Source of the DNA: a virus
DNA: 34,616 bases
Virus record (IMG/VR): IMGVR_UViG_3300030430_002613
Coordinates: 1 to 34,616 of that record
Direction: 5' to 3' (one strand)
The notes under the pieces are model-generated. The model saw nothing but the letters and a program-made list of their open reading frames with translations. It ran no database searches and was not told the DNA's origin. Made by a program: the position numbers and the translations under genes. Numbering within the stretch: position 1 is the stretch's first letter; every line of letters starts with the position of its first letter. Of the stretch, positions 1 to 16,682 are shown piece by piece.

Positions 1-290
1 TGTAGGTTATTTATAGAAAAATTGTTTTTTATCCGTCAGAGTCTATCCAATATATGCTATTCATGAATAATAAAAAGATTAGTTTTAAGAGCCTCTAATA
101 TTTCGCTGGGGTTATGGTATCAAAATCTATTTTAATTGCATTAGGCGTTCTCTGAGGCGTAAAATTCGCCCTATTTCATATGAATTTAATCTTACTTTTA
201 TTGATAATCAAGCATTTATAAATATTAGACCATAAAAAAACCCCCTAAAAAAGGGGGTAAATAATTAATTTAATTTATTTAATGATTAAT
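1..290. repeat. Intergenic repeat, copy A (pairs with 33833-34127)
   Basis: A diverged direct copy of 33833-34127. The first 55 bases are identical between the copies. Further conserved blocks are GGTATCAAAAT, TTAATTGCATTAGGCGTT, CTGAGGCGTAAAATTCGCC and ATTGATAATCAA. In transcription order both copies start just after the stop of a small gene, include that gene's terminator, and run on for about 230 bases. No shared ORF was found in the element. A GGCG-TAAAATT-CGCC hairpin and a TTGAT-ATCAA inverted repeat are kept in both copies. Function is unknown; a structured RNA, an origin or a recombination site are all possible. Confidence 0.85.
234..259 (-). terminator. Rho-independent terminator after the Gp88-like gene
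   Basis: On the minus strand a stem of ACCCCC/GGGGGT closes an A/T loop and is followed by seven T. It lies about 35 bases after the stop of the Gp88-like gene and ends the leftmost accessory operon. The equivalent stem in the other repeat copy reads CCCTC/GAGGG, so the base pair is kept while both bases change. Confidence 0.85.
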
Positions 291-293
291 TTA

Positions 294-905
294 TTAATGG
301 AATATAAGACCAACTTTATTAGATGCATTGAACCATTTAGTGGCGAATAGATCAATTTTACTAGCGTTTTTATAACCATCTTTAATTAAGTCTTTGACAT
401 TATTAAAAATCTTTGTATGTCTGTCAATAGATCTATTAATTAAATTTACCTGTTTACCACTATCCGAAAATATAAAATCAAAATTATTGGGAATAGATTT
501 TAGATCCTTTACAAATTTAATTGAATTCGTATAGCTGTAAAATTTGACATTTGGGTTATCTTTTGCAATTGTTAACCATTTATTTAAATATTTTGGGCTG
601 TAATAATCGCCGCTATCATGCACCCTTACAAAATCAGGTTTTTTGCGTTTAATTTCCTTATTCATTAAATCAATAAAATTATTTTGTTTTGTTAGTTCAT
701 ATTTTTTTTCCATGCCATTTCTGACAGAGGGAAAACGTTTGTAATTTCCTTTTTGAGCATAACAAAATTTAATGCATTTATCCGCAAATGGGCATGTTAT
801 TTTTCCCGTTTGGCTCTTATAAGCTGGAATAGAAAAGTTAAATACTTTTTTATTTAGAAATAGACCCGTTTGTTTAATCTTTGTATTTTGTGTTAATAAG
901 TTCAT
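294..905 (-). CDS. Gp88-like cysteine-cluster protein
   Basis: A 203-residue protein that resembles the Gp88 family first named in mycobacteriophages (Pfam GP88). Visible landmarks are a cysteine cluster C-x5-C-x3-C near residues 38-48 (TCPFADKCIKFCYA), an RNGMEKKYEL segment, and a histidine/aspartate motif VRVHDSGDYYS near residue 95 followed by FYSYTNS. The family's function is not known to me; the cysteine cluster invites an iron-sulfur or zinc role, but this is inference, and its spacing is not the canonical radical-SAM CX3CX2C. It is the last gene of an accessory operon and is followed by a terminator and the 290-bp repeat. The start is supported by a TAACTAATTATG leader typical of this region. 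Confidence 0.65.
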   Translation of the reverse strand: MNLLTQNTKIKQTGLFLNKKVFNFSIPAYKSQTGKITCPFADKCIKFCYAQKGNYKRFPSVRNGMEKKYELTKQNNFIDLMNKEIKRKKPDFVRVHDSGDYYSPKYLNKWLTIAKDNPNVKFYSYTNSIKFVKDLKSIPNNFDFIFSDSGKQVNLINRSIDRHTKIFNNVKDLIKDGYKNASKIDLFATKWFNASNKVGLIFH

Positions 906-925
906 AATTAGTTATTTTTAATTAG

Positions 926-1222
926 TTAATATATATCGTCAATTTCAGGTAGATCACCAACCAAAATATTTAATTTGTGATTAGCTTTTTTACTACTTAA
1001 ATTGTATTCACTCTTATAATAGTCTAAAATTAGATTTATAATGTGTTCATAGTTCCAACCCTTTTTATTTGTTGTTGTCTTTTCTTTGTATCTATAATTA
1101 ATAAATTTAGATAAGAGCATTTTTATATATAAAGGGTTTTTTTGTTCATGGGCTATTCGTATAAATTCGTGTAAAATAGCTTTTCTATGTCTTAAGACAA
1201 ACAATTTATTATTTATGTTCAT
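926..1222 (-). CDS. Hypothetical protein, 98 aa
   Basis: A 98-residue lysine- and asparagine-rich protein with predicted helices and no motif I recognise. It sits between the WYL_2-like gene (1 base away) and the Gp88-like gene (20 bases away) in the same operon, so it is probably co-transcribed accessory cargo. The acidic C-terminus (LPEIDDIY) is the only distinctive feature. It is a clear intact ORF with close spacing, but no function can be given. Confidence 0.7.
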   Translation of the reverse strand: MNINNKLFVLRHRKAILHEFIRIAHEQKNPLYIKMLLSKFINYRYKEKTTTNKKGWNYEHIINLILDYYKSEYNLSSKKANHKLNILVGDLPEIDDIY

Positions 1223-1223
1223 A

Positions 1224-1544
1224 TTAAATAATATTTATAGTTTTTTTATTTCCAGTATCAACATCAAAGAATTTAATATAAAATAAAGTATTAGAATTGA
1301 TTTTTCTAAAGTCATTTATTGTCATGTCAAAAACTTTAAAATGTCCATGTTTATTCGGGTCATGTTTAGCACCTGTACCCTTAACACCAATTTTAACACC
1401 GCCTCTATATTTTCCAAATCTAGGCGTTCCATCTTTCTTAATGTGTCCAGCACCGAAAATTAAACCAGTTTTTACGGCTTTTTCTACAAGTCTAAACTTG
1501 TACGAATTAGATATTTTACTCTTTGTTTTTATATTTAGTTTCAT
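1224..1544 (-). CDS. WYL_2-like (DUF2693, Sm-like SH3b fold) protein
   Basis: A 106-residue basic protein. The central part (about residues 28-85) reads like the WYL_2/DUF2693 family common in Bacteroidetes and their phages: a KKDGTPRFGKYRGG segment, a variable loop, then KVFDMTINDFRKI leading into a final strand. The fold of that family is a small Sm-like/SH3 beta barrel, and its role is uncertain; nucleic-acid or ligand sensing is only a guess. It is preceded by an ACTAACTAAATACA leader shared in form with neighbouring genes and is followed after 1 base by the next gene. Family assignment is from motif recall. Confidence 0.55.
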   Translation of the reverse strand: MKLNIKTKSKISNSYKFRLVEKAVKTGLIFGAGHIKKDGTPRFGKYRGGVKIGVKGTGAKHDPNKHGHFKVFDMTINDFRKINSNTLFYIKFFDVDTGNKKTINII

Positions 1545-1560
1545 AGTTGTATGTATTTAG

Positions 1561-1839
1561 TTAGTAATTTGGGTCATTAAATTCTTGTAATTTTTCGTTT
1601 ATTTCTTCAACATTAATTGCTGGATTGTCCCAATCTTTAATGTCTATTTCCCAATCTCCCTTTTGCGGTTTTACAATAGTTTTAAACATTTCAAAGTCTA
1701 AATTATTTTTTCCGCAAAAGTGAGCCAATTGATATAAATTAGGGTCATTGTCAATCCACAAGGAAACTAAAAAAGTTTCGTAATTGTAGTGACCGTTGTA
1801 CTTTTTGGCGGTGTTTTTATTTGTATTCGAATTTTTCAT
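1561..1839 (-). CDS. DUF7249-like small phage protein
   Basis: A 92-residue protein. The segment YNGHYNYETFLVSLWIDND (residues about 14-32) followed by LYQLA resembles a small phage family with a YETW/F-xx-LW-x-ND signature that I associate with DUF7249; function unknown. The C-terminal half is acidic and alternates W and D (GDWEIDIKDWDN). It lies inside the operon that starts at the promoter near 2050. The leader before the ATG contains TTACTAACTAAATTTTAT, matching other starts in the region. Confidence 0.6.
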   Translation of the reverse strand: MKNSNTNKNTAKKYNGHYNYETFLVSLWIDNDPNLYQLAHFCGKNNLDFEMFKTIVKPQKGDWEIDIKDWDNPAINVEEINEKLQEFNDPNY

Positions 1840-1866
1840 TTTTATAAAATTTAGTTAGTAATTAGT

Positions 1867-1995
1867 TTAAAATATCTCTTTTAATGTCTTTATAAAAGGT
1901 TTGACAAATAATGTCAAAACAATTACAGTCATAAGACCAAAAAAAGGGATCAATAAATTTATTATCGTATTTATTTCATTTAATGTAAGTTTCAT
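1867..1995 (-). CDS. Small single-pass membrane protein, 42 aa
   Basis: Read directly from the gap. It starts MKLTLNEINTII and contains one long hydrophobic stretch (about residues 10-32, rich in L, I, V, F) followed by a basic end FVKPFIKTLKEIF. It is the first gene after the promoter at 2037-2067 and has the usual A-rich leader ending AAAAATT before the ATG. No homologue is recalled. Confidence 0.6.
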   Translation of the reverse strand: MKLTLNEINTIINLLIPFFGLMTVIVLTLFVKPFIKTLKEIF

Positions 1996-2036
1996 AATTT
2001 TTGTATTTAGTTAATATTATTTTTAATTAGTTAAGA

Positions 2037-2067
2037 CAAACATAAAATATATTTTCCACATGACAAA
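2037..2067 (-). promoter_or_regulatory. Bacteroidetes-type promoter for the leftmost accessory operon
   Basis: On the minus strand TTTG (2064-2067) is followed by a 19-base spacer and TATGTTTG (2037-2044), an exact match to the Bacteroidetes TTTG / TAnnTTTG consensus. The -33 side reads TTTGTCATGTGGAAAA, a variant of the TTGTCAGTTGGA element seen at three other places. The first gene begins about 40 bases downstream after a TTAACTAATTAAAA leader. Phased A-tracts lie immediately upstream. Confidence 0.75.
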
Positions 2068-2101
2068 ATAAAAAGCAAAAAAACGCAAAAAAAACGCAAA
2101 T
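2065..2101. promoter_or_regulatory. Phased A-tracts upstream of the 2050 promoter
   Basis: Three A-runs of 5 to 8 bases separated by GC or CGC, at roughly 10-11 bp spacing, lie directly upstream of the -33 element. Such phasing is known to bend DNA. An UP-element or curvature role at this promoter is inference. Confidence 0.5.
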
Positions 2102-2133
2102 TTAGAATAAGTCTAAATAAGGAATTATGGCAC

Positions 2134-2165
2134 AAAAAAAACCCCCTATTGAATTCATAGAGGGG
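2134..2165 (-). terminator. Rho-independent terminator after the small-protein operon
   Basis: On the minus strand a stem formed by ACCCCTC/GGGGGT around a GAATTC centre is followed by eight T. It ends the 2967-2208 operon. The loop and 3' arm are built from one of the 15-bp repeat units, so terminator and repeat overlap. Confidence 0.8.
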
Positions 2166-2212
2166 TATTAAATTCATAGGGGTATTAAATTCACATCCCT
2201 ATTAGATTCACA
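2145..2212. repeat. Array of four 15-bp repeats (consensus TRTGAATYYAATASS)
   Basis: On the minus strand four units lie at 2198-2212, 2181-2195, 2164-2178 and 2145-2159, so starts are 17, 17 and 19 bp apart. They read TGTGAATCTAATAGG, TGTGAATTTAATACC, TATGAATTTAATACC and TATGAATTCAATAGG. The first supplies the TGA stop of the upstream gene; the last forms the terminator hairpin. A second array of the same motif is at 3165-3239. Confidence 0.85.
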
Positions 2213-2342
2213 TTTGCAATTTTTCTTTGAAGATCTTCCCATTTAATTCTTCGACAATCTTTCTAGTTTTTGAATTCTTCATGAGCTTATCTACGTTTTG
2301 TGATTTAAATTTTAACCATATAAATTTATCTTGTTTCATCAT
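2208..2342 (-). CDS. Hypothetical protein, 44 aa
   Basis: A short lysine-rich protein (MMKQDKFIWLKFKSQNVDK...). The ATG at 2340-2342 overlaps the TGA of the upstream gene as ATGA, which selects this start over the ATG three bases later. Its stop codon lies inside the first unit of the 15-bp repeat array. No family is recognised. Confidence 0.5.
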   Translation of the reverse strand: MMKQDKFIWLKFKSQNVDKLMKNSKTRKIVEELNGKIFKEKLQM

Positions 2343-2449
2343 TTAAGTTTAAAAAGGTTTTTCTTATCAAATTCTTTTTTAAGTTTATTCTCTAATTTCT
2401 TCCTTACTTCAGGAGGTAGATTTGAGAAATCAAATATATTTGTTTTCAT
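2339..2449 (-). CDS. Hypothetical protein, 36 aa
   Basis: A 36-residue basic peptide: an N-terminal FDFSNLPPEVRKKLE segment followed by an amphipathic lysine-rich helix. It is coupled to the next gene by an ATGA overlap. The leader before its ATG is the recurrent AACTAATTAAAATAAATAAAT. Function unknown. Confidence 0.5.
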   Translation of the reverse strand: MKTNIFDFSNLPPEVRKKLENKLKKEFDKKNLFKLK

Positions 2450-2471
2450 ATTTATTTATTTTAATTAGTTA

Positions 2472-2627
2472 TTAATCATCTTCTCTTTCATCGTGAAAGC
2501 CAGTGCCTTCTTTACATTCTAGACAACGACCAGTCACGTAATCGTCATCTATTTGTACTTCACCGATTGGGTAAGCACCACAACAATCTGAGATATATGT
2601 TATATTATTGAATTTATCTTCTTTCAT
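2472..2627 (-). CDS. Small zinc-ribbon-like protein, paralogue of 2630-2821
   Basis: A 51-residue acidic protein with two cysteine pairs: SDCCGA near residue 15 and CLEC near residue 36. The spacing and flanking residues match the 63-residue neighbour (TCCDA ... CSKC), so the two are tandem paralogues. A zinc knuckle is the likely fold. The target is unknown, and such acidic small proteins in phage early or accessory regions often bind host proteins (inference). Confidence 0.65.
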   Translation of the reverse strand: MKEDKFNNITYISDCCGAYPIGEVQIDDDYVTGRCLECKEGTGFHDEREDD

Positions 2628-2629
2628 AA

Positions 2630-2821
2630 TTATTCGTTTTCGTCATAAAAGTCTGACCACTCATTACATTTCGAGCAATATCCAAATGCAACTTTATCGT
2701 GGTCTATTTCTACATCTTCGTATGTTGGAAGTGCATCACAACAAGTTGATATAAAAGTTACATCATTGTTTTTGTAAAGTTTGTCTAGCCAATTAGGATC
2801 TTCATCCACCATATGATTCAT
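2630..2821 (-). CDS. Small zinc-ribbon-like protein, 63 aa
   Basis: Acidic 63-residue protein with a CC pair (STCCDALPTYEDVEIDHDK) and a CSKC pair (GYCSKCNEWSDFYDENE). It aligns by eye with the 51-residue neighbour and has an extra N-terminal DEDPNWLDKLYKNND. The ATG overlaps the stop of the upstream gene as ATGA, showing translational coupling. A zinc ribbon is inferred from the paired cysteines; no function is known. Confidence 0.7.
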   Translation of the reverse strand: MNHMVDEDPNWLDKLYKNNDVTFISTCCDALPTYEDVEIDHDKVAFGYCSKCNEWSDFYDENE

Positions 2822-2967
2822 AATTTTATTTTTATGTTTTTATATGTTGCTACTTCTAATAAGTATTCATTGTCATAATCTAATGATCCATCTAAATATC
2901 TCAAGATATTTTCTTGACAATATTCATAAGGTAATATGTATTGTTTTATAAATTGTTTTCTTTTCAT
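2818..2967 (-). CDS. Hypothetical protein, 49 aa
   Basis: First gene after the promoter at 2996-3026. The N-terminus is basic (MKRKQFIKQYILPYEYCQ) and the rest holds LRYLDGSLDYDNEYLLEVATYK, probably helical. It is coupled by an ATGA overlap to the zinc-ribbon gene. The leader TTAACTAATTAAAATATAAAATT precedes the ATG. No family is recognised. Confidence 0.6.
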   Translation of the reverse strand: MKRKQFIKQYILPYEYCQENILRYLDGSLDYDNEYLLEVATYKNIKIKL

Positions 2968-2995
2968 AATTTTATATTTTAATTAGTTAATAGTA

Positions 2996-3026
2996 CAAAT
3001 ATAATAATTATTTTCCAACTGACAAA
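2996..3026 (-). promoter_or_regulatory. Bacteroidetes-type promoter with TTGTCAGTTGGA element
   Basis: On the minus strand TTTG (3023-3026), a 19-base spacer and TATATTTG (2996-3003) match the Bacteroidetes consensus exactly. The -33 element is extended to TTTGTCAGTTGGAAAA. It drives the 2967-2208 operon after a leader of about 25 bases. Confidence 0.8.
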
Positions 3027-3065
3027 TTTTATTTAAATTATTTTTTATATATATTTGCAAAAATT

Positions 3066-3095
3066 AAAAAACCCTCTGAAAGTGTCAAAGGGTTT
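3066..3095 (-). terminator. Terminator of the early/terminase operon
   Basis: On the minus strand AACCCT and AGGGTT form a stem with an inner TTGA...TTCA extension, followed by a T-run. It lies about 110 bases past the nuclease stop and should end the long unit that begins with the ERF gene. Confidence 0.75.
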
Positions 3096-3103
3096 CTTGT
3101 TAA

Positions 3104-3178
3104 CTAATTATAATAACCAAAAATCAAATTATGAAAAAACATAATTGAAGTAGGTCCAAATATAGGTATTAAATTCAT
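3104..3178 (-). CDS. Possible hydrophobic micro-ORF, 24 aa
   Basis: The ATG lies within one 15-bp repeat unit (TATGAATTTAATACC). The product would be a mostly hydrophobic peptide (MNLIPIFGPTSIMFF...) ending just before the terminator. It may be only a chance reading of the repeat; there is no overlap signal or homologue to support it. Confidence 0.2.
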   Translation of the reverse strand: MNLIPIFGPTSIMFFHNLIFGYYN

Positions 3179-3239
3179 ATATACAAAATTTATCCTATTA
3201 AATTCACAGGGTATTAGATTCATAGGTGTTAAATTCATA
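3165..3239. repeat. Second array of four 15-bp repeats
   Basis: On the minus strand the units at 3225-3239, 3210-3224, 3194-3208 and 3165-3179 read TATGAATTTAACACC, TATGAATCTAATACC, TGTGAATTTAATAGG and TATGAATTTAATACC. The first two are translated as the C-terminus of the nuclease (YEFNTYESNT) and the third provides its TGA stop. The same motif is arrayed at 2145-2212. Confidence 0.85.
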
Positions 3240-3716
3240 AGCACTTTTTGATGCATCAGGATAATAAATTCTTTGTATTTCAAGGTGTTTTATATCATCG
3301 TAAGATACTTTTACTATCTGATCTTTTCTACCCCACTTTGATCTTGTATATATTTTCCAGTAATCTTTTTTGCTTGTAGTGGTTTCTGTAACACCACCTA
3401 TTAAATTCAAGAGATCAATTCTATTGTAGATACAAAAAGATTCTAGTTCATGAATATAGAAACAAATGTAATCTGCTTTACCTTTTAACCATCCATCTCT
3501 ACCCTGCACATTAGTAAGCTCTAACCAAATTGTATCTAGATGCCTTCCACCTTTAACATCTACTCCTTTATCATTAATATAGAAATCAATATGTTTGTGC
3601 ATGTTTTCATGCCTATTGGATTTTGTTACAGAATTAGATCTGTCTTTCATACAAGTAGCAAAGTGGTTTTCAACAAAATCACCATACTTAAAATCATAAT
3701 ATTGTTTACGTATCAT
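3204..3716 (-). CDS. PD-(D/E)XK-like nuclease next to terminase
   Basis: A 170-residue protein. Residues 42-80 look like a small PD-(D/E)XK nuclease core: HIDFYIND with D44, VDVKGG giving D53-x-K55, then DTIWLEL with E66, and a GRDGWLKGKADY segment. This arrangement is frequent in phage endonucleases that lie beside terminase genes; a role in DNA processing or packaging is inferred. It follows terL with only 5 bases between. The last twelve residues (AYEFNTYESNTL) come from the 15-bp repeat array, so this tail is probably a recent addition and unlikely to be part of the fold. Confidence 0.65.
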   Translation of the reverse strand: MIRKQYYDFKYGDFVENHFATCMKDRSNSVTKSNRHENMHKHIDFYINDKGVDVKGGRHLDTIWLELTNVQGRDGWLKGKADYICFYIHELESFCIYNRIDLLNLIGGVTETTTSKKDYWKIYTRSKWGRKDQIVKVSYDDIKHLEIQRIYYPDASKSAYEFNTYESNTL

Positions 3717-3721
3717 GTAAA

Positions 3722-4933
3722 TTATCTTATAACATAAGTGCCTTTTGGATTGCTACGCAGAAGTAAATACTCAACAGCATACCTCATCGCATCGACACCA
3801 TGATTGTAAGCATCTCTCGGCTTGACACCCCTGATATCCCAAACATAGTTGTTGAATTCTTTGACAAGGTTTTCTCCATCCAAGTTGATGTTGTAATCCT
3901 GCATCAAAGCAATTCCTGTTACAATACTGCCCTTCTTCTTGACAGTGGCAGTGCAATTCAACCCTCTTGAATTCAGCTCGGCAATCAGTCGAGGTTCGCT
4001 GGAGTCTACAACAATAAGTCTTTTTCCTGCATATCTTAAACATAAGTCATATATATTTGAAGTAACTAACCCTTTTTTATAAAAGTGTTCTTTAACCCAA
4101 ATAATCTTTCTTGCTTTATCTACTGCAACTTCTGTGAGTACAGACTCATCTCTAGCAAATCCAATGTCTAATCCAAAACAACTTATAGGTATATCCCTAT
4201 TGAATTGTCCAATCTGCCAATCTTCAAATACAACTCCTTCAGCTTTCTGTAACCAACCACCCATGATTTGATGCTGATACTTCTGTGGTCTTCTTACTTT
4301 CATTTCTTCTACTTGCTTCACAAAAGACTCAGATAAATGTTCTTCATTGTCTAAATAAGTGGTATGAATATAGGTAACCCCATCTTTAGATCCATTGAAT
4401 CCATCAGCAATACCCCTGTTCTGAAAGAATCTCTGATACACCCAATGTTCTTTTGTAGTGGGATTTAATATAAGTAAAACTCTATTGGTAGATACTTTGG
4501 ATCTAATACTGTAATCTATCTTATCAAAGTTATCTTCTTCCATTAGCTCCTCTGCTTCATCAAGCACAAAAGTATTTACACCACTTATAGATTTTAGTTT
4601 AGCAGTCTGATCTCCACTAGCAGTTTTTATGCCTGAGAAATATATAGAAGAACCAGTTACTTTATTTTTTATTTCATATTTGGTGACCTCAAAGTTTTCA
4701 ATTACTCCCATTAAATTCAGTTTTTCTACAAACTCAGGAATAATCGACATAGAAGCAGAAGTCATGGTGTACCTAGTAAAGAGTACCCTGTTGTCCTTTT
4801 CGTACGTTAGAAGTGCTAAAAATACCGTTACAGCGAATGATTTACCTGATCCTCTACCACCAGTTATTACAACGTATCTATCCTTTGTCTGAAACAGACT
4901 TTGATACTTTGGGTTTAGATTCAGCTTTTGCAT
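3722..4933 (-). CDS. terL: Terminase large subunit
   Basis: A 403-residue packaging motor. The N-terminal ATPase shows Walker A GGRGSGKS (25-32) and Walker B TFVLDEAEE (D125, E126), with the coupling segment LLILNPTT near 153-160. The C-terminal RNase H-like nuclease has its acidic residues in LDIGFARD (D256), IVVDSSEP (D310) and NHGVDAMRY (D381). Length and motif order fit the Terminase_3/PBSX-type group. It translocates DNA into the prohead through the portal and cuts concatemers. It lies at the end of the early operon after the small terminase, far from the portal gene, which is unusual. All key residues are present. Confidence 0.95.
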   Translation of the reverse strand: MQKLNLNPKYQSLFQTKDRYVVITGGRGSGKSFAVTVFLALLTYEKDNRVLFTRYTMTSASMSIIPEFVEKLNLMGVIENFEVTKYEIKNKVTGSSIYFSGIKTASGDQTAKLKSISGVNTFVLDEAEELMEEDNFDKIDYSIRSKVSTNRVLLILNPTTKEHWVYQRFFQNRGIADGFNGSKDGVTYIHTTYLDNEEHLSESFVKQVEEMKVRRPQKYQHQIMGGWLQKAEGVVFEDWQIGQFNRDIPISCFGLDIGFARDESVLTEVAVDKARKIIWVKEHFYKKGLVTSNIYDLCLRYAGKRLIVVDSSEPRLIAELNSRGLNCTATVKKKGSIVTGIALMQDYNINLDGENLVKEFNNYVWDIRGVKPRDAYNHGVDAMRYAVEYLLLRSNPKGTYVIR

Positions 4934-5027
4934 TCTCTTTGATAATATCGTTTATGTCTTTTTTAATTATTGGTAAATGATAAAGAAGGTGAACTTTTTT
5001 CTCTAAGTCCTCAATCTTTTTTTTCAT
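4878..5027 (-). CDS. Small coiled-coil-like protein overlapping terL
   Basis: A 49-residue ORF read from the gap. It begins MKKKIEDLEKKVHLLYHL, a short heptad-like helix, and ends KPKVSKSVSDKG. Its last 56 bases overlap the start of terL in another frame, and its first bases overlap the end of the small terminase. It may be a genuine accessory of the terminase pair; the overlap at both ends supports tight packing, but no homologue is recalled. Confidence 0.45.
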   Translation of the reverse strand: MKKKIEDLEKKVHLLYHLPIIKKDINDIIKENAKAESKPKVSKSVSDKG

Positions 5028-5379
5028 TTGTAGGAGAGTCGATTCTTTCATTCTCAGGTGTTACATCTATTGTTTTAGGTCTAGCAAAATCTATGACAGG
5101 AATATTAACTTTTGTGTTAACATCTATCTGTTGCATTTCTTTTGGTTTACCATATCTATAATTCATAAGATAATCCCACATTTTAGGATTACCAGCTTTA
5201 GCTTCTTTGGCAATATGCATCCACATTTTCTCTGCACTACCAAAGTTTTTTTTTATCGCAAAGTCAATCAGACCAGTCATATTATCTGTGATAATCTTTC
5301 TAGGTCTACCTTGCCCTCTGCTGATACCTTTTACAGCACCATTGTTTTTTCTCCCATCTTGTTTTTTTATTTCTGACAT
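5011..5379 (-). CDS. Probable terminase small subunit
   Basis: A 122-residue basic protein immediately upstream of terL. It opens with a GRKNNGAVKGISRGQGRPRK segment, has a helical middle part (DFAIKKNFGSAEKMWMHIAKEAKAGN), then MWDYLMNYRYGKPKE, a pattern I associate with phage small-terminase-like proteins where the YRYGKP box ends the helical domain. The C-terminus is polar and acidic. The small subunit recognises the packaging site and loads TerL. Assignment rests mainly on position and the basic helical layout; a different DNA-binding role cannot be excluded. Confidence 0.6.
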   Translation of the reverse strand: MSEIKKQDGRKNNGAVKGISRGQGRPRKIITDNMTGLIDFAIKKNFGSAEKMWMHIAKEAKAGNPKMWDYLMNYRYGKPKEMQQIDVNTKVNIPVIDFARPKTIDVTPENERIDSPTNEKKD

Positions 5380-5441
5380 ACATCTATAATATAAATTAGT
5401 GCTATAAGTAAAGCACCTACCAAGTAAAACGATGTTCCCAT
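5367..5441 (-). CDS. Membrane micro-protein, 24 aa
   Basis: MGTSFYLVGALLIALIYIIDVCQK: a single hydrophobic segment with a polar end. It starts 2 bases before the end of the upstream DnaA-like gene and overlaps the start of the small terminase by 13 bases. The tight fit suggests a real micro-gene, but the evidence is slim. Confidence 0.4.
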   Translation of the reverse strand: MGTSFYLVGALLIALIYIIDVCQK

Positions 5442-5442
5442 A

Positions 5443-5817
5443 TTAATTTTGTTTTTCTAGTTCCCTTTTCATTCTTACGTTTTCTCTTATTAAATCTTCA
5501 ACGTAATATTTTTTATTTGTCCACCAGCTATTAGATTTTATATCTCTACACTCTCTGCTTATCTTGTCATAAGCTTTTATATATTTCATTTCTTTCCATA
5601 AGAATAAATTCTTAAATGTATTCTTAGTGTGGTGTAAAACTGTTGCATGATCGAAGCCAAGAGTATTACCAATGTCTGCCAAACCCATGTTTAAGACTTC
5701 TCTGCATAAACCAAAATACAAAGCTCTAGCATAAACAAAATCCCTCTTTCTTGTAGGAACTTCTAGATCTATATTCAAATGTTCCTCTACTTTGTTTCTA
5801 ATTATCTTATAATTCAT
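5443..5817 (-). CDS. DnaA domain-IV-like DNA-binding protein
   Basis: A 124-residue protein with no ATPase domain. Residues about 22-66 match the DnaA C-terminal DNA-binding domain: a TRKRDFVYARAL helix, then GLADIGNTLGFDHATVLHHTK, whose last part corresponds to the RDHSTVLHA signature that contacts the DnaA box. A charged helical tail follows (residues 95-124). It could recognise a phage origin containing DnaA-like boxes or interfere with host initiation; both are inference. It overlaps the 61-residue gene by 4 bases. Confidence 0.8.
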   Translation of the reverse strand: MNYKIIRNKVEEHLNIDLEVPTRKRDFVYARALYFGLCREVLNMGLADIGNTLGFDHATVLHHTKNTFKNLFLWKEMKYIKAYDKISRECRDIKSNSWWTNKKYYVEDLIRENVRMKRELEKQN

Positions 5818-5999
5818 TTCTTCGTTTTTCTATAATCATTATATGCATCAAGTATGCCTTGACAACATTCATATTGTTCTAAATCTTCATAGTGTTTTAT
5901 GATAACTTTGATATCATCTTTAATAAGTAAACCCTGAATCAACGACATAATTATATCATCGTAGCACTCCTTTCGACTTACTGTTAAAGTTTCAATCAT
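5814..5999 (-). CDS. Hypothetical protein, 61 aa
   Basis: A small helical protein (SRKECYDDIIMSLIQGLLIKDDIKVIIKHYEDLEQYECCQGILDAY by parts). It is coupled at both ends by ATGA overlaps: with the RecB-like nuclease upstream and the DnaA-like gene downstream. That places it in the replication operon. No motif is recognised apart from a CC pair near residue 45. Confidence 0.65.
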   Translation of the reverse strand: MIETLTVSRKECYDDIIMSLIQGLLIKDDIKVIIKHYEDLEQYECCQGILDAYNDYRKTKK

Positions 6000-6763
6000 A
6001 ATATTAACTCTCTATATTTTGGCTCAAACACAGTTTGACCTTGCTCTATTTTTTTATAATTCTCTACACCATCAATTACGATTTGTTTGCCACTCAAATA
6101 AAACTCTTCACTTATAGTATAGAAATCAAAATCACCAGTATTTCTATCTACTGCTATAAATGTCCAGTTTGTATAATCTATCTTAAACAATTCTGTATAG
6201 ATATATACTTGAGCTGCATAACCATAGTCTCTGGCATCCCATTTAAATCCATTTAGGTTTCTACAGGTTTTTAAATCTACGATGTAACCATCACCTAAAA
6301 TATCAGCCTTAGCTCTAAAACAATAACCATAAAGCATACCAACTGTTGGTGTCTCTGTTTGACTATGTTCAAAAATATGTTCTACTTTTCTGCATGATAG
6401 AAGCTGATCGGCTATTTGTTTGACCTTATATCGATCAGACATTAAGTAAACTTTACCATGTTTTTCTTCTGCTTCCTGCCAAACCTTACCTGATCTTCTT
6501 GGCACATCTACAAAGACTTGTTTATTAAATACATCAGGTTCTAAAAGATACCAGTGAAACAAACTGCCAAAATCAAACTTACTATCACTGACACCTGTTG
6601 AATTTACATACTTAAAATAATCATTAGGTTTATTTGCTAATACTTTTATAGATGAAGAGGAGAGAGAATTTTTACCCATATAGTCATAGTAAAACTCATC
6701 ATCATACATATTCGTTTCAAGCTCTTCCTCTCTCCAAAGTTCTCCATCTAATGTGACTATCAT
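5996..6763 (-). CDS. RecB/ExoVIII-like PD-(D/E)XK exonuclease
   Basis: A 255-residue nuclease. The order of motifs fits the RecB/RecE (PDDEXK_1) fold: FDFGSLFHWYLLEP with H70, FRAKADILGDGYIVDLKTC with D154 and D163-x-K165, and YAAQVYIYTEL with the Q185-xxx-Y189 motif. Such enzymes chew 5' ends to give 3' single strands for annealing. The likely partner is the ERF protein encoded at the start of the same operon. Together they would form a two-component recombination system, although the two genes are about 5.5 kb apart. All catalytic positions appear intact. Confidence 0.8.
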   Translation of the reverse strand: MIVTLDGELWREEELETNMYDDEFYYDYMGKNSLSSSSIKVLANKPNDYFKYVNSTGVSDSKFDFGSLFHWYLLEPDVFNKQVFVDVPRRSGKVWQEAEEKHGKVYLMSDRYKVKQIADQLLSCRKVEHIFEHSQTETPTVGMLYGYCFRAKADILGDGYIVDLKTCRNLNGFKWDARDYGYAAQVYIYTELFKIDYTNWTFIAVDRNTGDFDFYTISEEFYLSGKQIVIDGVENYKKIEQGQTVFEPKYRELIL

Positions 6764-6767
6764 CTAT

Positions 6768-6884
6768 TTATTTTTTCTCGTAAACGACATGATTGTTTTT
6801 TCTAAGTAGTGTTTTTGCTTTTTCTATTTTTCTTTGCTTTTTTCTATAGTGTTCAAAGATATGATTTGTAATAACATTTCTCAT
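6768..6884 (-). CDS. Basic small protein, 38 aa
   Basis: MRNVITNHIFEHYRKKQRK...VVYEKK, a single basic helix. The ATG overlaps the TGA of the preceding gene (ATGA) and the stop lies 4 bases before the nuclease start. It is not a recognised family. Confidence 0.5.
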   Translation of the reverse strand: MRNVITNHIFEHYRKKQRKIEKAKTLLRKNNHVVYEKK

Positions 6885-6997
6885 TTTTTTTCTTTTTGTG
6901 ATTCATATAAATGTTCTTGTTCTTCCCACTGAATTTGTGGTCTTGTTTCTTCACCCAACATTTCTTCCTCTTCTAATAGTTTTTTTATTTTACCCAT
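6881..6997 (-). CDS. Acidic small protein, 38 aa
   Basis: MGKIKKLLEEEEMLGEETRP... followed by a Q/E-rich, lysine-ending tail. It is coupled to the next gene by ATGA and overlaps the stop region of neighbouring genes closely. Function unknown. Confidence 0.5.
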   Translation of the reverse strand: MGKIKKLLEEEEMLGEETRPQIQWEEQEHLYESQKEKK

Positions 6998-6998
6998 A

Positions 6999-7178
6999 TT
7001 ATAGTTTTAAGATTATATATTTTAATATTGATTCTATCCCTTTTAATATTTTATTAAGTGGATATTCGAGTAGATAGTAATTTGTATATAGCAATACTTT
7101 TACTATACAAAATACAACCAATAATATAAAAGCTATAATTAAATGTGGTAATCTTAATAATATTTTAAATGCTTTCAT
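6999..7178 (-). CDS. Small membrane protein, 59 aa
   Basis: Read from the gap. Basic start MKAFKILLRLPH, then a strong transmembrane stretch (about residues 12-34, IIAFILLVVFCIVKVLL) and an amphipathic C-terminal part. It ends 2 bases before the following gene. Membrane location is clear from composition; the role is unknown. Confidence 0.55.
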   Translation of the reverse strand: MKAFKILLRLPHLIIAFILLVVFCIVKVLLYTNYYLLEYPLNKILKGIESILKYIILKL

Positions 7179-7223
7179 ATTTTTGCTTATGACACAAATC
7201 TATGAAAAATATTTTATATAAGA

Positions 7224-7382
7224 TTATTTACTTGGATCAAACGTACCTTTCCATATAGATTGACATACTGCAAACCTTTGATCTCTGTCACCAAATTCAG
7301 ATATCATTTTAGCATTATTCATACATCTTCTATTGAAGTCCTTTTTCTCTTCGTACTTTTTGGGTTTCATTCTAAGTGGCAT
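7224..7382 (-). CDS. Small conserved phage protein, 52 aa
   Basis: MPLRMKPKKYEEKKDFNRRC... then a C-terminal ...EFGDRDQRFAVCQSIWKG motif. The pattern F-x-D-x-x-Q-R-x-A-V-C-x-S-x-W is one I know from small phage proteins of unknown role; two cysteines and the tryptophan are its fixed points. It lies 3 bases after the diphosphohydrolase-like gene. Confidence 0.6.
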   Translation of the reverse strand: MPLRMKPKKYEEKKDFNRRCMNNAKMISEFGDRDQRFAVCQSIWKGTFDPSK

Positions 7383-7385
7383 AAC

Positions 7386-7736
7386 TTACTTTTTAGTTTT
7401 CTCTAATTCCTTTTGTAGATTAGCTAAAGCTCTCCAAGCTACCTTTGTTGAATGACGTATACCATCATCATCAAATGTACCTGCTTGAAGTAAATGTCTA
7501 CTTAGTGCATCTAATTCATCTCCTGACTTTGACCTATCCCAATGTAATTCTTTATCAGGATTATGTTGATTGTTACCAACATAACTACATTTAGATATTT
7601 CTCTTATAGCATCAGGAAAGTATTTTAACACACCACTGTAAACTGGCATTGACTTTCTATCTTCTTTTGAAGTAACTATACCAGTATCATTTTGTACGTA
7701 TGACAAACCTGTCATTTCATCTAAAATTGTATTCAT
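7386..7736 (-). CDS. dATP/dGTP diphosphohydrolase N-terminal-like (DUF5664) protein
   Basis: A 116-residue protein with the signature of the domain formerly called DUF5664: SMPVYSGVLKYFPDAIREIS, GNNQHNP, LHWDRSKSGDELDALSRHLL and a final RHSTKVAWRALANLQ helix. The family has been annotated as the N-terminal part of dATP/dGTP diphosphohydrolases, which would adjust the dNTP pool. The conserved H, D and R residues are visible. Whether this stand-alone domain is catalytic is not shown by the sequence. It lies 1 base from the 140-residue gene in the replication operon. Confidence 0.65.
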   Translation of the reverse strand: MNTILDEMTGLSYVQNDTGIVTSKEDRKSMPVYSGVLKYFPDAIREISKCSYVGNNQHNPDKELHWDRSKSGDELDALSRHLLQAGTFDDDGIRHSTKVAWRALANLQKELEKTKK

Positions 7737-7737
7737 G

Positions 7738-8160
7738 TTATTTGTTATATTCTGTGTATATTCCTTTTAACTTACTTAAGACATTGTTTACAAAACATGG
7801 TGAACAGCTTGTAGGTTCAACCTTTGGTGCTTTGGGAAATACTCTACCGTAAATATTAATCAAAGCAACTTGTTCATCTATAGTTACTTTGGATTTATTT
7901 GCTGTAAAATATTTGTCTAAATAATTGTATTCATCTTCTGTCAAACATTGTGGCTGTACATAAGGGAATAATTTATTAAGCTTTTCTTTTCTCTCTTCAC
8001 ATCCACAGTCTTCACCAAGTAACCATTTAGCTACTTTATCTATACCAGTAGCTTGAAATACCTTTTCTACTGTATCACCAAAACCTTTACTGGTCTTTTT
8101 TGCTTTTAAGGTACTCGTACCACTCTTCTCTAACTTCTGATCTAATTTTTTCTTTGCCAT
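7738..8160 (-). CDS. Conserved hypothetical protein, 140 aa
   Basis: N-terminal basic tail (MAKKKLDQKLEKSG...KTSKG), then GFGDTVEKVFQATGIDKVAKWLLGEDCGCEERKEKLNKLFPY and a later CLTEDEYNYLDKYF, with a final SCSPC cysteine pair. I recall the GDTVEK...GCxxRKEKLN...LTxxEY layout from other Bacteroidetes phages, function unknown. Its first 74 bases overlap the end of the sigma-like gene in another frame, and there is no later methionine in the ORF, so the overlap is real. The cysteine pairs GCGC and CSPC may bind metal. Confidence 0.7.
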   Translation of the reverse strand: MAKKKLDQKLEKSGTSTLKAKKTSKGFGDTVEKVFQATGIDKVAKWLLGEDCGCEERKEKLNKLFPYVQPQCLTEDEYNYLDKYFTANKSKVTIDEQVALINIYGRVFPKAPKVEPTSCSPCFVNNVLSKLKGIYTEYNK

Positions 8161-8623
8161 TTTTTAATGTGTTAAATATTGAACTTAAACTAATTTTAGT
8201 AACAGATGCTATCATTCTCATAGACATTTGCTTCTTAAAATGTATCTCCCAAAGTTTCTTGTCATACCAATACCATTTTCCTACTATATTCTCTATCTTG
8301 CTAATCAACTTATCAAATGCAGTTTCATAATCTATTTTGTACGTTTCATCAGCACCTATACTAAAATTATCTATAGGTAAATCTTTTTTTACCTTATGAT
8401 AACCTGACAAAAATAGATTACGCAAAGTTACATAAACATAATAAGTATTTATATTATCTTCATCATACATAATCTTATCAACTTTATCTACATACTTGCT
8501 GAGTCTTAAATACATACCTTGTACAAGTTCATTTGCAGCATCATCATCACATCCAAACGATTTTGCCATATGTATCCAGTCTTTATGTTTTTCTGCTAGT
8601 TTATCTATTAGTCTCCCCACCAC
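8087..8623 (-). CDS. Sigma-70-like transcription factor
   Basis: A 178-residue protein. The N-terminal half resembles sigma region 2 (IHMAKSFGCDDDAANELVQGMYLRLSKY, then YYVYVTLRNLFL). The C-terminal half resembles region 4: MSMRMIASVTKISLSSIFNTLKNGKEKIR, a helix-turn-helix. Similar proteins in Bacteroidetes phages are annotated as sigma-family factors. It could direct host polymerase to phage promoters such as the TTGTCAGTTG-type sites; this is inference. The start is GTG at 8621-8623, overlapping the preceding gene by 16 bases; a downstream ATG (MAKSFG) is possible but would remove the first helix. Confidence 0.65.
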   Translation of the reverse strand: MVGRLIDKLAEKHKDWIHMAKSFGCDDDAANELVQGMYLRLSKYVDKVDKIMYDEDNINTYYVYVTLRNLFLSGYHKVKKDLPIDNFSIGADETYKIDYETAFDKLISKIENIVGKWYWYDKKLWEIHFKKQMSMRMIASVTKISLSSIFNTLKNGKEKIRSEVREEWYEYLKSKKDQ

Positions 8624-8778
8624 CAGTGAAAAGATATACCTACAATTCCTATGAAGAATTGTATCATATACTCTTTACTCAAGTCTTTTGGATGTGGATC
8701 GTCTTCAGTATTCATGTCTGTATCCCAATAGTTAATACCTACACATAAACCATAAATAGGAAAAAATTGTATATACAT
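8608..8778 (-). CDS. Small protein with hydrophobic ends, 56 aa
   Basis: MYIQFFPIYGLCVGINYWDTD... then an acidic centre (NTEDDPHPKD) and a hydrophobic C-terminus (MIQFFIGIVGISFHWWWGD). The layout of two hydrophobic segments around a polar loop suggests a membrane hairpin. I recall similar FxFxxGxNYW peptides beside phage sigma-like genes in this host group. It starts 6 bases after the resolvase stop and overlaps the sigma-like gene by 16 bases. Confidence 0.6.
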   Translation of the reverse strand: MYIQFFPIYGLCVGINYWDTDMNTEDDPHPKDLSKEYMIQFFIGIVGISFHWWWGD

Positions 8779-8783
8779 AGTAT

Positions 8784-9191
8784 TCAGTCTTTGTTATACT
8801 GTTTTACAACAGCTTCTATTCTAGGGTTTTCTCTATCAATCCCCCCATAATTACAAGTAATCTTTTTGACTGTCTTTGTATCATCACTGACAATACAATC
8901 AGAAGATGTCATTGTATCTTGAAAGAATTTATCTACGACTGATATTACGTTCATAAGATCTCTCACTCTGCTATCAGGTGCATAGTAAGTATAATCTATT
9001 TCTACCTCACTGTTAAATTTAAAATCTAATCTTTTGCTTACCTTTGCCTGAAATGCCTTTTTTATATCGTTAGAAACAAAGGTATTCCAATTTCTATACT
9101 GGTTTAGATTCAGATAAAATCTTCTGAGTCTTCTTTTACCTATTGTAATTCTAATCGGCAGAAGAACTTTTATAGCCTTTTCTAAGTTCAT
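8784..9191 (-). CDS. RusA-like Holliday junction resolvase
   Basis: The RusA-type pattern is visible: an N-terminal LPIRITIGKRRLRRFYLNLNQYRNW, a central FNSEVEIDYTYYAPDSRVRDLMN, then VDKFFQDTMTSSDCIVSDDTKTVKKI with the paired aspartates typical of the family's metal site. RusA resolves four-way junctions made during replication and recombination, fitting its place behind the primase-helicase and with ERF. The ATG at 9189-9191 (MNLEKAIKV) is preferred because it puts the first family strand near the N-terminus and overlaps the primase gene by 41 bases; an ATG at 9248 would overlap it by 98 bases. Confidence 0.65.
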   Translation of the reverse strand: MNLEKAIKVLLPIRITIGKRRLRRFYLNLNQYRNWNTFVSNDIKKAFQAKVSKRLDFKFNSEVEIDYTYYAPDSRVRDLMNVISVVDKFFQDTMTSSDCIVSDDTKTVKKITCNYGGIDRENPRIEAVVKQYNKD

Positions 9192-10890
9192 CAACCTTTG
9201 TAAATGGTGTTTTTCCACCAAAGTAAAATCGTTGGCTTTTAATATCAAATTCTATATCTTTTATTTCCTGTGGAATTCCTACCAACTTTTGTTTCTTTAT
9301 TTTCTGTGATCCAAAGATAGCTCTCTTTGACGAATAATCCAAAGCTCTATCAGGTCTCCATATAAAAAGTACATTATCGGCTTTGTCTGCAAAAGTACCC
9401 CCACCCTTAATTCTATTGCTATCAGGCTTTATATATTTACCATTATCTTCTTTTGTTGGGGTTACTTGATGTGCAACTAAATGTACAGAAACTTTATACT
9501 TAAGTGCAAATCTTTTGAGTTCAGACATAAACCTTGATATATATAAATCTTCTCTTTCGCCTGACTTCATTCGATGTTGAACTGTATTATAAGGATCTAT
9601 AATTAAACTACGTATACCTTGAGTCTTAACTAAAAACTTTGCTCTGTCAAAAATAGATTGCAATTCAAAGTCTGCTCTAGGATAAATTAGAAAGAAATGT
9701 TTTCTTACAAAAGTCATAGCATCTTTATATTCTTTGATTGACATTTGATTGTTTTTATAAAAAGGATCTGAAGTTTTACCTACATACATCTCGATTATAT
9801 CATTAAAGAAATCATTCATAGGCATATTCTCAGGTGAAAATACACCAAACTTCCAACCATCATGATATGCTTTTAATGTAGATAATTGATTTAAAAATAA
9901 ACTTTTACCTTCGTTCTGATAGCCTGTCCAGATATTTACCTCACCTATTCTCCATGTCCAAGCATTATCTATCTCTCTGACATAGGTAGTAGATCCTCTT
10001 TCTTGACCATTATGAAACCCATCTATCATAGACTCACCTACATCTGCTACAGAGAATATACCCTCTATTTTAGGTCTAGAAGCTATTTTAAGACGATTTC
10101 TGAGACTTTCTACCCCTTCATGGACTAATACCTCATTTGCATCTTTATATGGCTTTAGATCGACTAAAAAGCATTTTTCTGATTCAAACCTACGAATAAG
10201 TTCTCTTTGTAGGTTTCTCCCATTTTCATCTTCATCAGTGGCAATAAAGATTGCTTCTGCATTTTTAAATACATCGTAGCAATTTGTCAAGCACTCTAGT
10301 TTTTTATCTACGTTGCTATCTCTAGAATTCATTGCACCCATGTTAACAGATGTATGAGATTTAACTCCTGCAACTTCCCATGATAAAGAATCCATTTCTC
10401 CTTCACAGATTACAATTCTTTTTTGGTCTACACAATTATCATAATTATAGATAATAGATTCAGCATCTTTAGATTGCGTAAAGGTTTTACCATCTATACC
10501 TCTAGTTTTATAATTTATTATTTGACCATCTTTAAAGTAGGGAAATAAAATACTTTTGTCATTTCTTGTGGAAACGATCTTATTGTTTTTTATTACCTCT
10601 TCTGTAATACCTCTATCAGTTAAAAATGATTTACCCTTTTTTGTTAAAGGAATCATGTTAGATCTTGAAGGTTTCTTATATGTTTTAGCCATTGGCACAA
10701 TTTCTATGTTATCTTTTATTTTACCTTTCCAACCACACTTATGGCAATAATATAAACCTTTAGATGGACTTACTGATAAACAAGGGTCTTTATAATGCTC
10801 TTTACCTAGTGTAAGACAATTTGGACATCTCTGTTTTTGTTCATCTCTGTTTTGATTTACCCTTATACCTAAATCAGAAAACGTTTGCAT
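9151..10890 (-). CDS. Primase-helicase (T7 gp4-like)
   Basis: A 579-residue bifunctional replication enzyme. A zinc-binding domain lies at residues 22-52 (CPNC, then CHKCGW). A TOPRIM primase domain holds ICEGEMDSLSWE (E163) and IFIATDEDENG (D219, D221). The DnaB/Twinkle-type helicase has Walker A TGYQNEGKS (K329), a Walker B SLIIDPYN (D432) and the HLVAHQV motif near 470. It would prime and unwind DNA at the phage fork. The C-terminus overlaps the resolvase gene. It is preceded by a run of TA repeats rather than a Shine-Dalgarno. Confidence 0.92.
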   Translation of the reverse strand: MQTFSDLGIRVNQNRDEQKQRCPNCLTLGKEHYKDPCLSVSPSKGLYYCHKCGWKGKIKDNIEIVPMAKTYKKPSRSNMIPLTKKGKSFLTDRGITEEVIKNNKIVSTRNDKSILFPYFKDGQIINYKTRGIDGKTFTQSKDAESIIYNYDNCVDQKRIVICEGEMDSLSWEVAGVKSHTSVNMGAMNSRDSNVDKKLECLTNCYDVFKNAEAIFIATDEDENGRNLQRELIRRFESEKCFLVDLKPYKDANEVLVHEGVESLRNRLKIASRPKIEGIFSVADVGESMIDGFHNGQERGSTTYVREIDNAWTWRIGEVNIWTGYQNEGKSLFLNQLSTLKAYHDGWKFGVFSPENMPMNDFFNDIIEMYVGKTSDPFYKNNQMSIKEYKDAMTFVRKHFFLIYPRADFELQSIFDRAKFLVKTQGIRSLIIDPYNTVQHRMKSGEREDLYISRFMSELKRFALKYKVSVHLVAHQVTPTKEDNGKYIKPDSNRIKGGGTFADKADNVLFIWRPDRALDYSSKRAIFGSQKIKKQKLVGIPQEIKDIEFDIKSQRFYFGGKTPFTKVDELRKGYKSSSAD

Positions 10891-10935
10891 ATATATATAT
10901 TATATATATAATTATATTATTTATTTATTTATTTT
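10891..10935. other. TA-rich tract before the primase gene
   Basis: About 45 bases of near-pure A/T, first TA dinucleotides, then TTTA tetranucleotides, cover the end of the winged-helix gene and the leader of the primase gene. It may serve as an unstructured leader for translation or as easily melted DNA. Confidence 0.5.
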
Positions 10936-11236
10936 TATTTATAATATTATTATGATATGTCGTTTTGACAGTTGGAGTAACATAAATCTTTCTATTTTTA
11001 CCATAGAATCCTGAACTTCTAGTTACCCTTTTTATTAGCTCCTTTTCTTCTAATCTATTTAATATTCTGTATAGAGTTCTTTGGTTAATATTTAACGTAT
11101 CTGACATATGACTATTTGATACAAAACAATATTCTTTTCTATCAAGTGAGCATAGGTAAGATAAAACAGACGACTCCTTAAACGATAAGGAGTCATCTAG
11201 ATTTAATTGTACATTTACAAATTTAGTTTTAGTCAT
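10925..11236 (-). CDS. Winged-helix DNA-binding protein
   Basis: Starting at MTKTKFVNVQ the protein is 103 residues. Residues about 20-75 form a winged helix: SFKESSVLSYLCSL, then SNSHMSDTLNINQRTLYRILNRLEEKELIKRVTR, which is the recognition helix and wing, followed by a tail with NRKIYVTPTV. It resembles replication-initiator or MarR/IclR-type wHTH regulators. The ATG at 11234-11236 is preferred: it follows the ParB-like stop by one base, whereas an upstream ATG would add 14 residues overlapping that gene. Likely a regulator or initiator of the early region (inference). Confidence 0.65.
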   Translation of the reverse strand: MTKTKFVNVQLNLDDSLSFKESSVLSYLCSLDRKEYCFVSNSHMSDTLNINQRTLYRILNRLEEKELIKRVTRSSGFYGKNRKIYVTPTVKTTYHNNIINKNK

Positions 11237-11237
11237 G

Positions 11238-11948
11238 TTAATATATTTTATTTTTTTGACTACGATAATTATACGCATCTACAAATTCTCTGTAGATATC
11301 GGTCTCATTGTTGTATATACGTAATTTCTTTTTAGGTATTCTATCTAAACATACTTTATCTACAAAACGTTTGGGATTGTTTCTTATTACATCCCTTATA
11401 ACTCTAATCATTTTACTATGTAAAAAAACACCATCTTTAGTCTCTTTAAATAAAGCAGTAGCTAATTCTAAAACACTTGCACCTCTTTTTTTATCAATCT
11501 TATATGATCTGTTTTTAATTAATGGTGCAGTGCTGTTGCCTCTATTGTCAGAAAAAGCATCGTTTATTTTACTACAAGTAAAATTATAAAAAGCATACAT
11601 TTGTTCAAGATAAATATAAGTGTCGTCTCCTTCCATAGCATATCTATGGACATAATCTTCGGTTTTCCAATTAGCCTGTTTTGTATTCATGTGTAGGACA
11701 CTATCTTGTGTGTAAATATCATCTACTATATATTTAACAGGTACATCTAATTCTACACAAGCCATAAATCTGTGTTGTCCGTCAGATATAAAATAGTATT
11801 TACCTACTTTTCTAACACATATAGATGCAAATTGTCCATGCTCTGCAATAGAGTTTTTTAAATAATTAACGTGACTTTTGTTTATATTTCTATTGTTTTT
11901 ATAAAATTTAAATAATTTATACTCCTTAGTTTTATTTATTGAATTCAT
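11238..11948 (-). CDS. ParB/sulfiredoxin-like nuclease-fold protein
   Basis: A 236-residue protein. The N-terminal half matches the ParB N-terminal/Srx fold: NRNINKSHVNYLKNSIAEHG, then KYYFISDGQHRFMACVELDVPVKYIV, with the GQHR box near residue 58. The C-terminal half is basic and not recognised. In phages this fold is found in DNA-binding or nuclease proteins and sometimes in DNA-modifying systems; the catalytic or CTP-binding role here is open. Its first codons (TATGAATTCAATA) match the 15-bp repeat core, which may be coincidence. It lies in the recombination operon. Confidence 0.7.
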   Translation of the reverse strand: MNSINKTKEYKLFKFYKNNRNINKSHVNYLKNSIAEHGQFASICVRKVGKYYFISDGQHRFMACVELDVPVKYIVDDIYTQDSVLHMNTKQANWKTEDYVHRYAMEGDDTYIYLEQMYAFYNFTCSKINDAFSDNRGNSTAPLIKNRSYKIDKKRGASVLELATALFKETKDGVFLHSKMIRVIRDVIRNNPKRFVDKVCLDRIPKKKLRIYNNETDIYREFVDAYNYRSQKNKIY

Positions 11949-12004
11949 ATCTTATTGTTTAGTGCATTTAGGGCAAGATATTATCTCACCCTTTCTGCGT
12001 TATT

Positions 12005-12271
12005 TTAAAATGGTAAATGATCTCCTGCACTTACAGGCTTTTTACCTTCTTTTTGTTCTTCAGTATTAAAGTCATTTACCCATATAGTATGTGTTCTACC
12101 ATGTTGGTCTACCTGTCTTTTTTTTCCTAAAGTAAGACGTATTTGTCTTTTACCATTATACTTATTTGTAAAATAGTGATTTTTCATATCTTCTTCAGTT
12201 AATAGTAATGTTGTGTAAAATTCATTAATTTGTTTTCCGTAACCTACGAAAATTCTATCATTGTTGTCCAT
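12005..12271 (-). CDS. Small protein with SSB-like C-terminal tip
   Basis: An 88-residue protein with a predicted beta-rich core (RIFVGYGKQINEF, RQIRLTLGKKRQ, HTIWVNDF) and a disordered tail that ends SAGDHLPF. The D-x-x-P-F ending resembles the acidic tip of single-strand DNA-binding proteins that recruits partner enzymes. It lies 7 bases after the ERF gene, where an SSB-type partner would be expected. No OB-fold signature is clear, so a role in binding ssDNA is a hypothesis. Confidence 0.45.
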   Translation of the reverse strand: MDNNDRIFVGYGKQINEFYTTLLLTEEDMKNHYFTNKYNGKRQIRLTLGKKRQVDQHGRTHTIWVNDFNTEEQKEGKKPVSAGDHLPF

Positions 12272-12278
12272 ATTAAAT

Positions 12279-12836
12279 TTATTGAGTTAGTAATTTTTTT
12301 TCTACTGTTGAATTTATCTTGTATTTCTTTTTTACATCTTCTATTGTATATCCTTTAGTCATCCAATGCTCTACATTTTTATAAGCTTCAGTTCCTACCT
12401 TCAGCTCAGGCAGGGCAGATACAGTTGTAGGCATAGTTTTATCGTGTGTGTTTGTAGCATCTGCATCTTTGGTATCATCAATTAAAAATAAACCATTAAG
12501 TGCATACTTTCTAGCATAACTAGAACTACTACCAAAAGACTGCGATATATCCATACCTTTTCTATTAAAATCTATTCCTGCTTGTGCAGAAGTTTTTTTT
12601 TCTTGTTTGCCATCAGATATTATTGCAGTCGCATTTACATAAGCTACATTTAAACTATCTAGACTTATAATCTCATCTGTGATAGTTAAAACTAACTTAT
12701 GTTTTGTAAGCAGTGGTTTTACTGCTTCTAATATATCTTCACAACTACGGTAATTATATCTACCAAAGTTGTTTCTTTGATTTTTAGGTGCCTTCAGTCT
12801 CCCCTGAATGTCTCCCAGTTTTTCATTTAAAGTCAT
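12279..12836 (-). CDS. ERF-family single-strand annealing protein
   Basis: A 185-residue protein from MTLNEKL. The ERF features are present: an N-terminal helix (LGDIQGRLKAPKNQRNNFGRYNYRSCEDILEAVKPLL), a strand-rich middle, and GMDISQSFGSSSSYARKYALNGLFLIDD, the conserved (G/A)-S-xx-SYxRKY(A)LxxLF box. ERF proteins anneal complementary strands in phage recombination. The longer ORF from 12869 is rejected because its first codons lie inside the promoter. The ATG is only 4 bases from the -7 element, so the mRNA may be leaderless. It begins the early operon. Confidence 0.88.
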   Translation of the reverse strand: MTLNEKLGDIQGRLKAPKNQRNNFGRYNYRSCEDILEAVKPLLTKHKLVLTITDEIISLDSLNVAYVNATAIISDGKQEKKTSAQAGIDFNRKGMDISQSFGSSSSYARKYALNGLFLIDDTKDADATNTHDKTMPTTVSALPELKVGTEAYKNVEHWMTKGYTIEDVKKKYKINSTVEKKLLTQ

Positions 12837-12840
12837 ACTG

Positions 12841-12870
12841 CAAATATATAAAAAAATTACAACTGACAAA
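12841..12870 (-). promoter_or_regulatory. Promoter of the early operon, apparently leaderless
   Basis: On the minus strand TTTG (12867-12870), an 18-base spacer and TATATTTG (12841-12848) fit the Bacteroidetes consensus. The -33 side is TTTGTCAGTTGTAA. The ERF ATG starts 4 bases after the last G, so the expected transcription start falls on or next to the start codon. Confidence 0.8.
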
Positions 12871-12876
12871 ATGTAT

Positions 12877-13556: not shown

Positions 13557-13579
13557 ATTTAAGTGTACTTCCTACAGTA

Positions 13580-16680: not shown

Positions 16681-16682
16681 AA

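Follow-up and report, generated by a model that had tools for sequence, protein, structure and literature searches.

The window analysed here, the whole 34,616-bp IMG/VR contig of an AT-rich marine tailed phage, carries homologous non-coding DNA at its two ends. The two copies are almost certainly not an intragenomic duplication and are best read as alleles of a single locus from two strains. As for the locus itself, a DNA control region between operons is the most likely reading, ahead of a new RNA. The whole explanation, a strain-allele assembly effect at an inter-operon DNA control region, is given a probability of about 0.65. The observations behind it are the single locus in relatives, the terminator, the conservation of the element, the lack of RNA covariation outside the terminator and the enrichment of a promoter motif.

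The phage encodes, among others, TerL, portal, primase/helicase and exonuclease proteins, and in the gene model of this analysis its genes are packed on the minus strand. A protein encoded at 7386–7736 (minus strand) has a dATP/dGTP diphosphohydrolase N-terminal domain (PF18909, E 8e-9). A search of the window for tRNA and tmRNA genes found none. The nearest isolates are the Inhavirus members P12024S and P12024L, which infect Nonlabens and whose TerL and portal proteins are 53% and 41% identical to those of the window phage. Many virion genes stand in a common order in these isolates and the window phage, whereas the gene order near the terminase differs. The window phage belongs to an uncultured group distantly related to Inhavirus, and the hosts of the lineage are probably Bacteroidota. 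Among sequenced bacterial genomes, the search for TerL relatives gave a single distant match, in Sphingobacterium (43%), and no close prophage for comparison.

The two contig ends on the circular map of the relatives

Positions 1–295 and 33833–34127 align without gaps at 87% identity (blastn E 3.5e-101), which bears out the homology of the two ends claimed in the original prediction. The limit of about 290 bp placed on that homology is too short, since in relatives it continues across another conserved block in the direction of a 67-aa gene's promoter (about 33784). Copy 1 seems shorter because the contig end cuts allele A. This allele lies at 1–295 on the minus strand, with its terminator at 258–240 and its core at about 52–176, and allele B (33784–34127, minus strand) is complete up to the promoter of the 67-aa gene. 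The first 55 nt of the window (1–55) recur exactly at 33833–33887 and the copies differ at base 56. The exact recurrence is best read as an assembly junction, like a de Bruijn path re-entering itself. Two relatives show exact end recurrences as well, of 127 terminal nt in G003 and 55 in G004, in each case at the end of the contig. Both 55 and 127 are usual final k values in metaSPAdes-type assemblies.

The nearest full-length relatives, G001–G004 (33.3–34.3 kb), have one full copy of the element each, and blast comparison of the window with them shows that the contigs are rotations of a single circular map. All four overlap at their ends (G001, 237 bp, 89%; G002, 98 bp, 100%; G003, 214 bp, 99.5%; G004, 139 bp, 99%), as does the more distant relative G006 (123 bp, 100%). 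On the G001 map, window positions 49–18768 correspond to 16557–33771 and positions 18532–34616 to 1–17154, which brings the two ends of the window together at the one element locus that G001 has. The last part of the window (34382–34616) is 93% identical to the DNA immediately upstream of that single element. In L011/G003 and in L004, a homologue of the GP88-domain gene that neighbours copy 1 lies upstream of the single element and the DNA downstream of it matches the downstream side of copy 2.

The original prediction took the two copies for a duplication, that is, for the element at two loci of one genome. The presence of both copies within one contig is what speaks for this, and it is set against the absence of two copies from every one of G001–G004, the mapping of both window ends to one locus of a relative and the exact 55-nt junction, which together make a true duplication extremely improbable. 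Judged from contigs rather than from reads, the case is strong that this very genome most likely has no second real copy. The two-strain reading accounts for the ends as follows. The contig would go exactly once round a phage genome of 33,832 bp that is circular or circularly permuted, and then run on, its start lying in the allele of strain A and the 783-bp tail that shares the element lying in the allele of strain B, with the two alleles joined through the exact 55-mer. The strain-B tail beyond the element (34128–34616, minus strand) holds an 82-aa gene at 34137–34385 and a cut gene.

Allelic ends and an exact junction of length k are likewise found in the inexact end overlaps of circular or circularly permuted viral contigs from several strains. 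The window differs from the usual case in that its two strains also have different genes next to the element, so that a simple end-repeat test misses the overlap. The diverged 89% end overlap of G001 corresponds to coding sequence of the window (18532–18768); as a strain-mismatched overlap can arise at such a place, a 'diverged end repeat' does not call for any particular property of the element. Contigs of this kind may often have inexact end overlaps that stem from mixed strains.

Anatomy of the element and exchange of its neighbours

Read on the gene strand, each copy begins with a terminator, which is followed by about 230 nt of non-coding DNA. The terminator of allele A (240–258, minus strand) has the stem ACCCCC..GGGGGT and that of allele B (34071–34090, minus strand) the stem AACCCTC..GAGGGTT, each with a T-run. 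The predicted pairing of CCCCC with GGGGG in one copy and of CCCTC with GAGGG in the other therefore holds, as a proper hairpin and T-run on the minus strand. Alleles were collected from viral contigs by exact-pattern scans, a TerL-based scan and an nhmmer profile, giving 29 non-redundant alleles, so further copies do exist in related phages. A blastn search of the element against 50,697 phage records returned short weak matches only. An intrinsic terminator is present in all 28 alleles that reach that far, with differing stem sequences.

A variable non-coding stretch follows the terminator and leads to a conserved block, which starts 171–275 nt past the T-run across the 29 alleles. The stretch holds TTGAnnATCA-like and ATTAAA strings, and TTTTAAG repeats occur in many distant alleles; ACGCCTAATGCAATTA is invariant across ten close alleles. 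The block itself is about 75 bp long, with the consensus GGTACTCTGACGG..TAACC..ACTCTACACA..TCTCCAACTGCCA across alleles. In the window it lies at 33802–33875 on the minus strand, reads GACTCTGACGG..TAACC..ACTCCACACA..TCTCCAACTGACA and is found by the nhmmer profile with an E-value of 2e-14. A relative of the block sought in P12024S and P12024L gave no convincing match. As predicted, the two copies share no open reading frame. A coding element was considered and rejected, as no frame is common to the alleles and allele A has none of at least 30 aa past the terminator. The suggestion of a multi-site protein-binding element is plausible and is favoured here, because the blocks are kept at nearly fixed spacing in 29 alleles.

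The block is followed by features of a promoter. The first gene past the element, conserved in relatives, is the 67-aa gene (phrog_5945; 33576–33779, minus strand), whose homologue often follows the element either directly or behind an inserted gene. It is directly followed by a very AT-rich gap of 207 bp with TATATA runs (33369–33575). Upstream of the 67-aa gene, TATATTTG (33784–33791, minus strand) resembles a Bacteroidota -7 box by its sequence and by the enrichment of the motif at this place in the family. As a sequence motif, TAnnTTTG, which we take to be the Bacteroidota -7 promoter box, follows the block within 75 nt in 16 of the 29 alleles against 1.6 expected, and its strict form is absent from the tested 75 nt in the other 13.

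The end of the block (33802–33813) is the inverse complement of TTGTCAGTTGGA, and this 12-mer recurs exactly at 3014–3025 and with one change at 12858–12869 (both minus strand), in each case before a TAnnTTTG box. Close versions precede such boxes in five relatives (G001–G004 and G006). Across the window, promoter-like sites of the form TTGTCAGTTGGAA..TATATTTG are seen at 3014–3025, 12858–12869 and 2055–2066 (all minus strand), their motif being the inverse of the block end. With up to two mismatches allowed, the 12-mer is mildly enriched (7 against 3.2, a count of 7 being reached in three of 100 shuffles), so what carries the argument is that it sits at promoters and is kept there in relatives. 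The recurrence suggests a shared regulator or a polymerase contact, either of which would bind at the motif.

The genes around the element are exchanged among relatives. Upstream of allele A lies a 203-aa GP88-domain gene (294–905, minus strand; PF17338, E 4e-37), and copy 2 has at this side the unrelated 82-aa gene, in agreement with the claim that the adjacent genes are unrelated. The GP88-domain gene is next to the element in some relatives and is swapped for unrelated genes in others. The upstream side can be read in nine close alleles. Their elements are about 80–89% identical to one or other of the window copies, and the upstream neighbour gene falls into seven unrelated groups; the downstream neighbour also varies. 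The idea of a module-exchange site hence stands in part, as a description of one conserved locus around which flanking genes are exchanged. The element may drive the exchange, or it may be no more than a landmark that stays conserved among accessory genes.

Structured RNA, replication origin and packaging site as alternatives

A structured non-coding RNA was the main suggestion of the original prediction, and the compensatory changes in the terminator and the slightly better folding of allele B than of its shuffles (z -2.0) are in line with it. Folding of single sequences is unremarkable in general, with z values of -0.3 to -2.0, and the terminator plus 5' hairpin does not score above shuffles. 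Across the ten aligned alleles covariation contributes unfavourably (+0.98), and the sole two-sided change lies within the terminator; the lack of covariation outside it counts against an RNA. The GGGCG/CGCC hairpin, the second of the element, is broken without compensation in three alleles, and the consensus energy is zero for group C and for all alleles combined. The sense strand of group B does beat column-shuffled controls (z -3.4), yet with just -3.8 kcal/mol and an unfavourable covariation term, and is given little weight. Rfam, searched at the gathering threshold and, for the element and its relatives, by E-value, gave nothing convincing. An apparent second compensatory hairpin, UUAG/CUAA against UUGC/GCAA, was discarded, since its pairing register shifts between alleles and consensus folding fails to recover it. 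With a lone compensatory pair inside the terminator, a structured RNA is very improbable.

The conserved stretch and block could instead form a replication origin, in which AT-rich iteron-like repeats would be bound by an initiator, within a large gap between genes that all run one way. In support, the elements are enriched for TTTAAG (48 against 26.7, sd 4.8), although the shuffle test overstates this significance as the alleles are related; the nearly fixed spacing of the block would also suit an origin, and one of the phage proteins (5443–5817) carries a DnaA C-terminal DNA-binding domain. This 124-aa protein (minus strand; PF08299, E 2e-11) has a weak homologue in P12024S and P12024L. DnaA boxes, sought as a cluster in the elements and in the window, are not enriched in either, and the repeats are not the same in every group, being weak in that of the window. 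An origin here is unlikely; if one were nearby, the AT-rich gap at 33369–33575 would be a possible DNA-unwinding region.

The region could also be the place where the terminase begins packaging (a pac or cos site). A multi-site DNA block with fixed spacing would suit this, and the region lies a few kb after the terminase gene both in the window and in relatives. The window and L125 both end at TAACCTAC within the block, but the exact 55-mer accounts for the window end, the remaining contig ends nearby show no common position and full-length relatives continue across the site, so that packaging from here is doubtful indeed. A cos site was also sought from contig ends and set aside: the end-motif scan is too loose for counting, and one of the two TAACCTAC ends is that of the window. 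L125, a 4.1-kb contig of a relative, ends at TAACCTAC (4136–4145) one base from the cut of allele A, perhaps by chance or perhaps at a DNA end. Phage origins and cos/pac sites resemble the element in their multi-site blocks, fixed spacing and non-coding gap, and differ from it in that no initiator boxes, cut site or end enrichment were found for the element.

The predicted control region and its significance

In the preferred explanation, an inter-operon DNA control region, the terminator would end the upstream transcript, which covers replication, terminase and accessory genes. The non-coding stretch and the 75-bp multi-site block would come next, and then a Bacteroidota-type -33/-7 promoter that would start the 67-aa gene and the structural genes. 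The element would act as DNA: a regulator from the phage or the host, or else RNA polymerase, would bind the block and the preceding stretch and thereby control the promoter. Such protein binding and regulation are most likely, as judged from sequence comparison. Known phage inter-operon control regions, with a terminator and then a promoter of the Bacteroidota type (-33 TTG and -7 TAnnTTTG), have the same terminator, short promoter box and conservation among relatives. They differ from the present one, in which a non-coding stretch of 170–275 nt and a 75-bp block intervene and the binding partner is hypothetical.

Against the control-region reading is the length of the non-coding stretch, which exceeds what a simple terminator and promoter need, and the TTTTAAG-type repeats would equally suit an origin or a packaging site. 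A tentative alternative is that the block and the repeat-bearing stretch form an undescribed phage cis element (an origin, a packaging site or a regulator platform), conserved across the lineage, with accessory genes exchanged on both sides of it.

Taken as an inter-operon control region, the element is ordinary in kind and moderately useful. It carries the caution that 'diverged repeats' at the ends of viral metagenome contigs can represent alleles of different strains where a full-length genome closes on itself. Contigs that combine an inexact end overlap with an exact junction of length k would, once recognised, also be marked as near-complete. For this uncultured phage group, the element is a landmark between exchangeable accessory genes, and the conserved region provides a clear target for mapping signals of transcription, replication and packaging.
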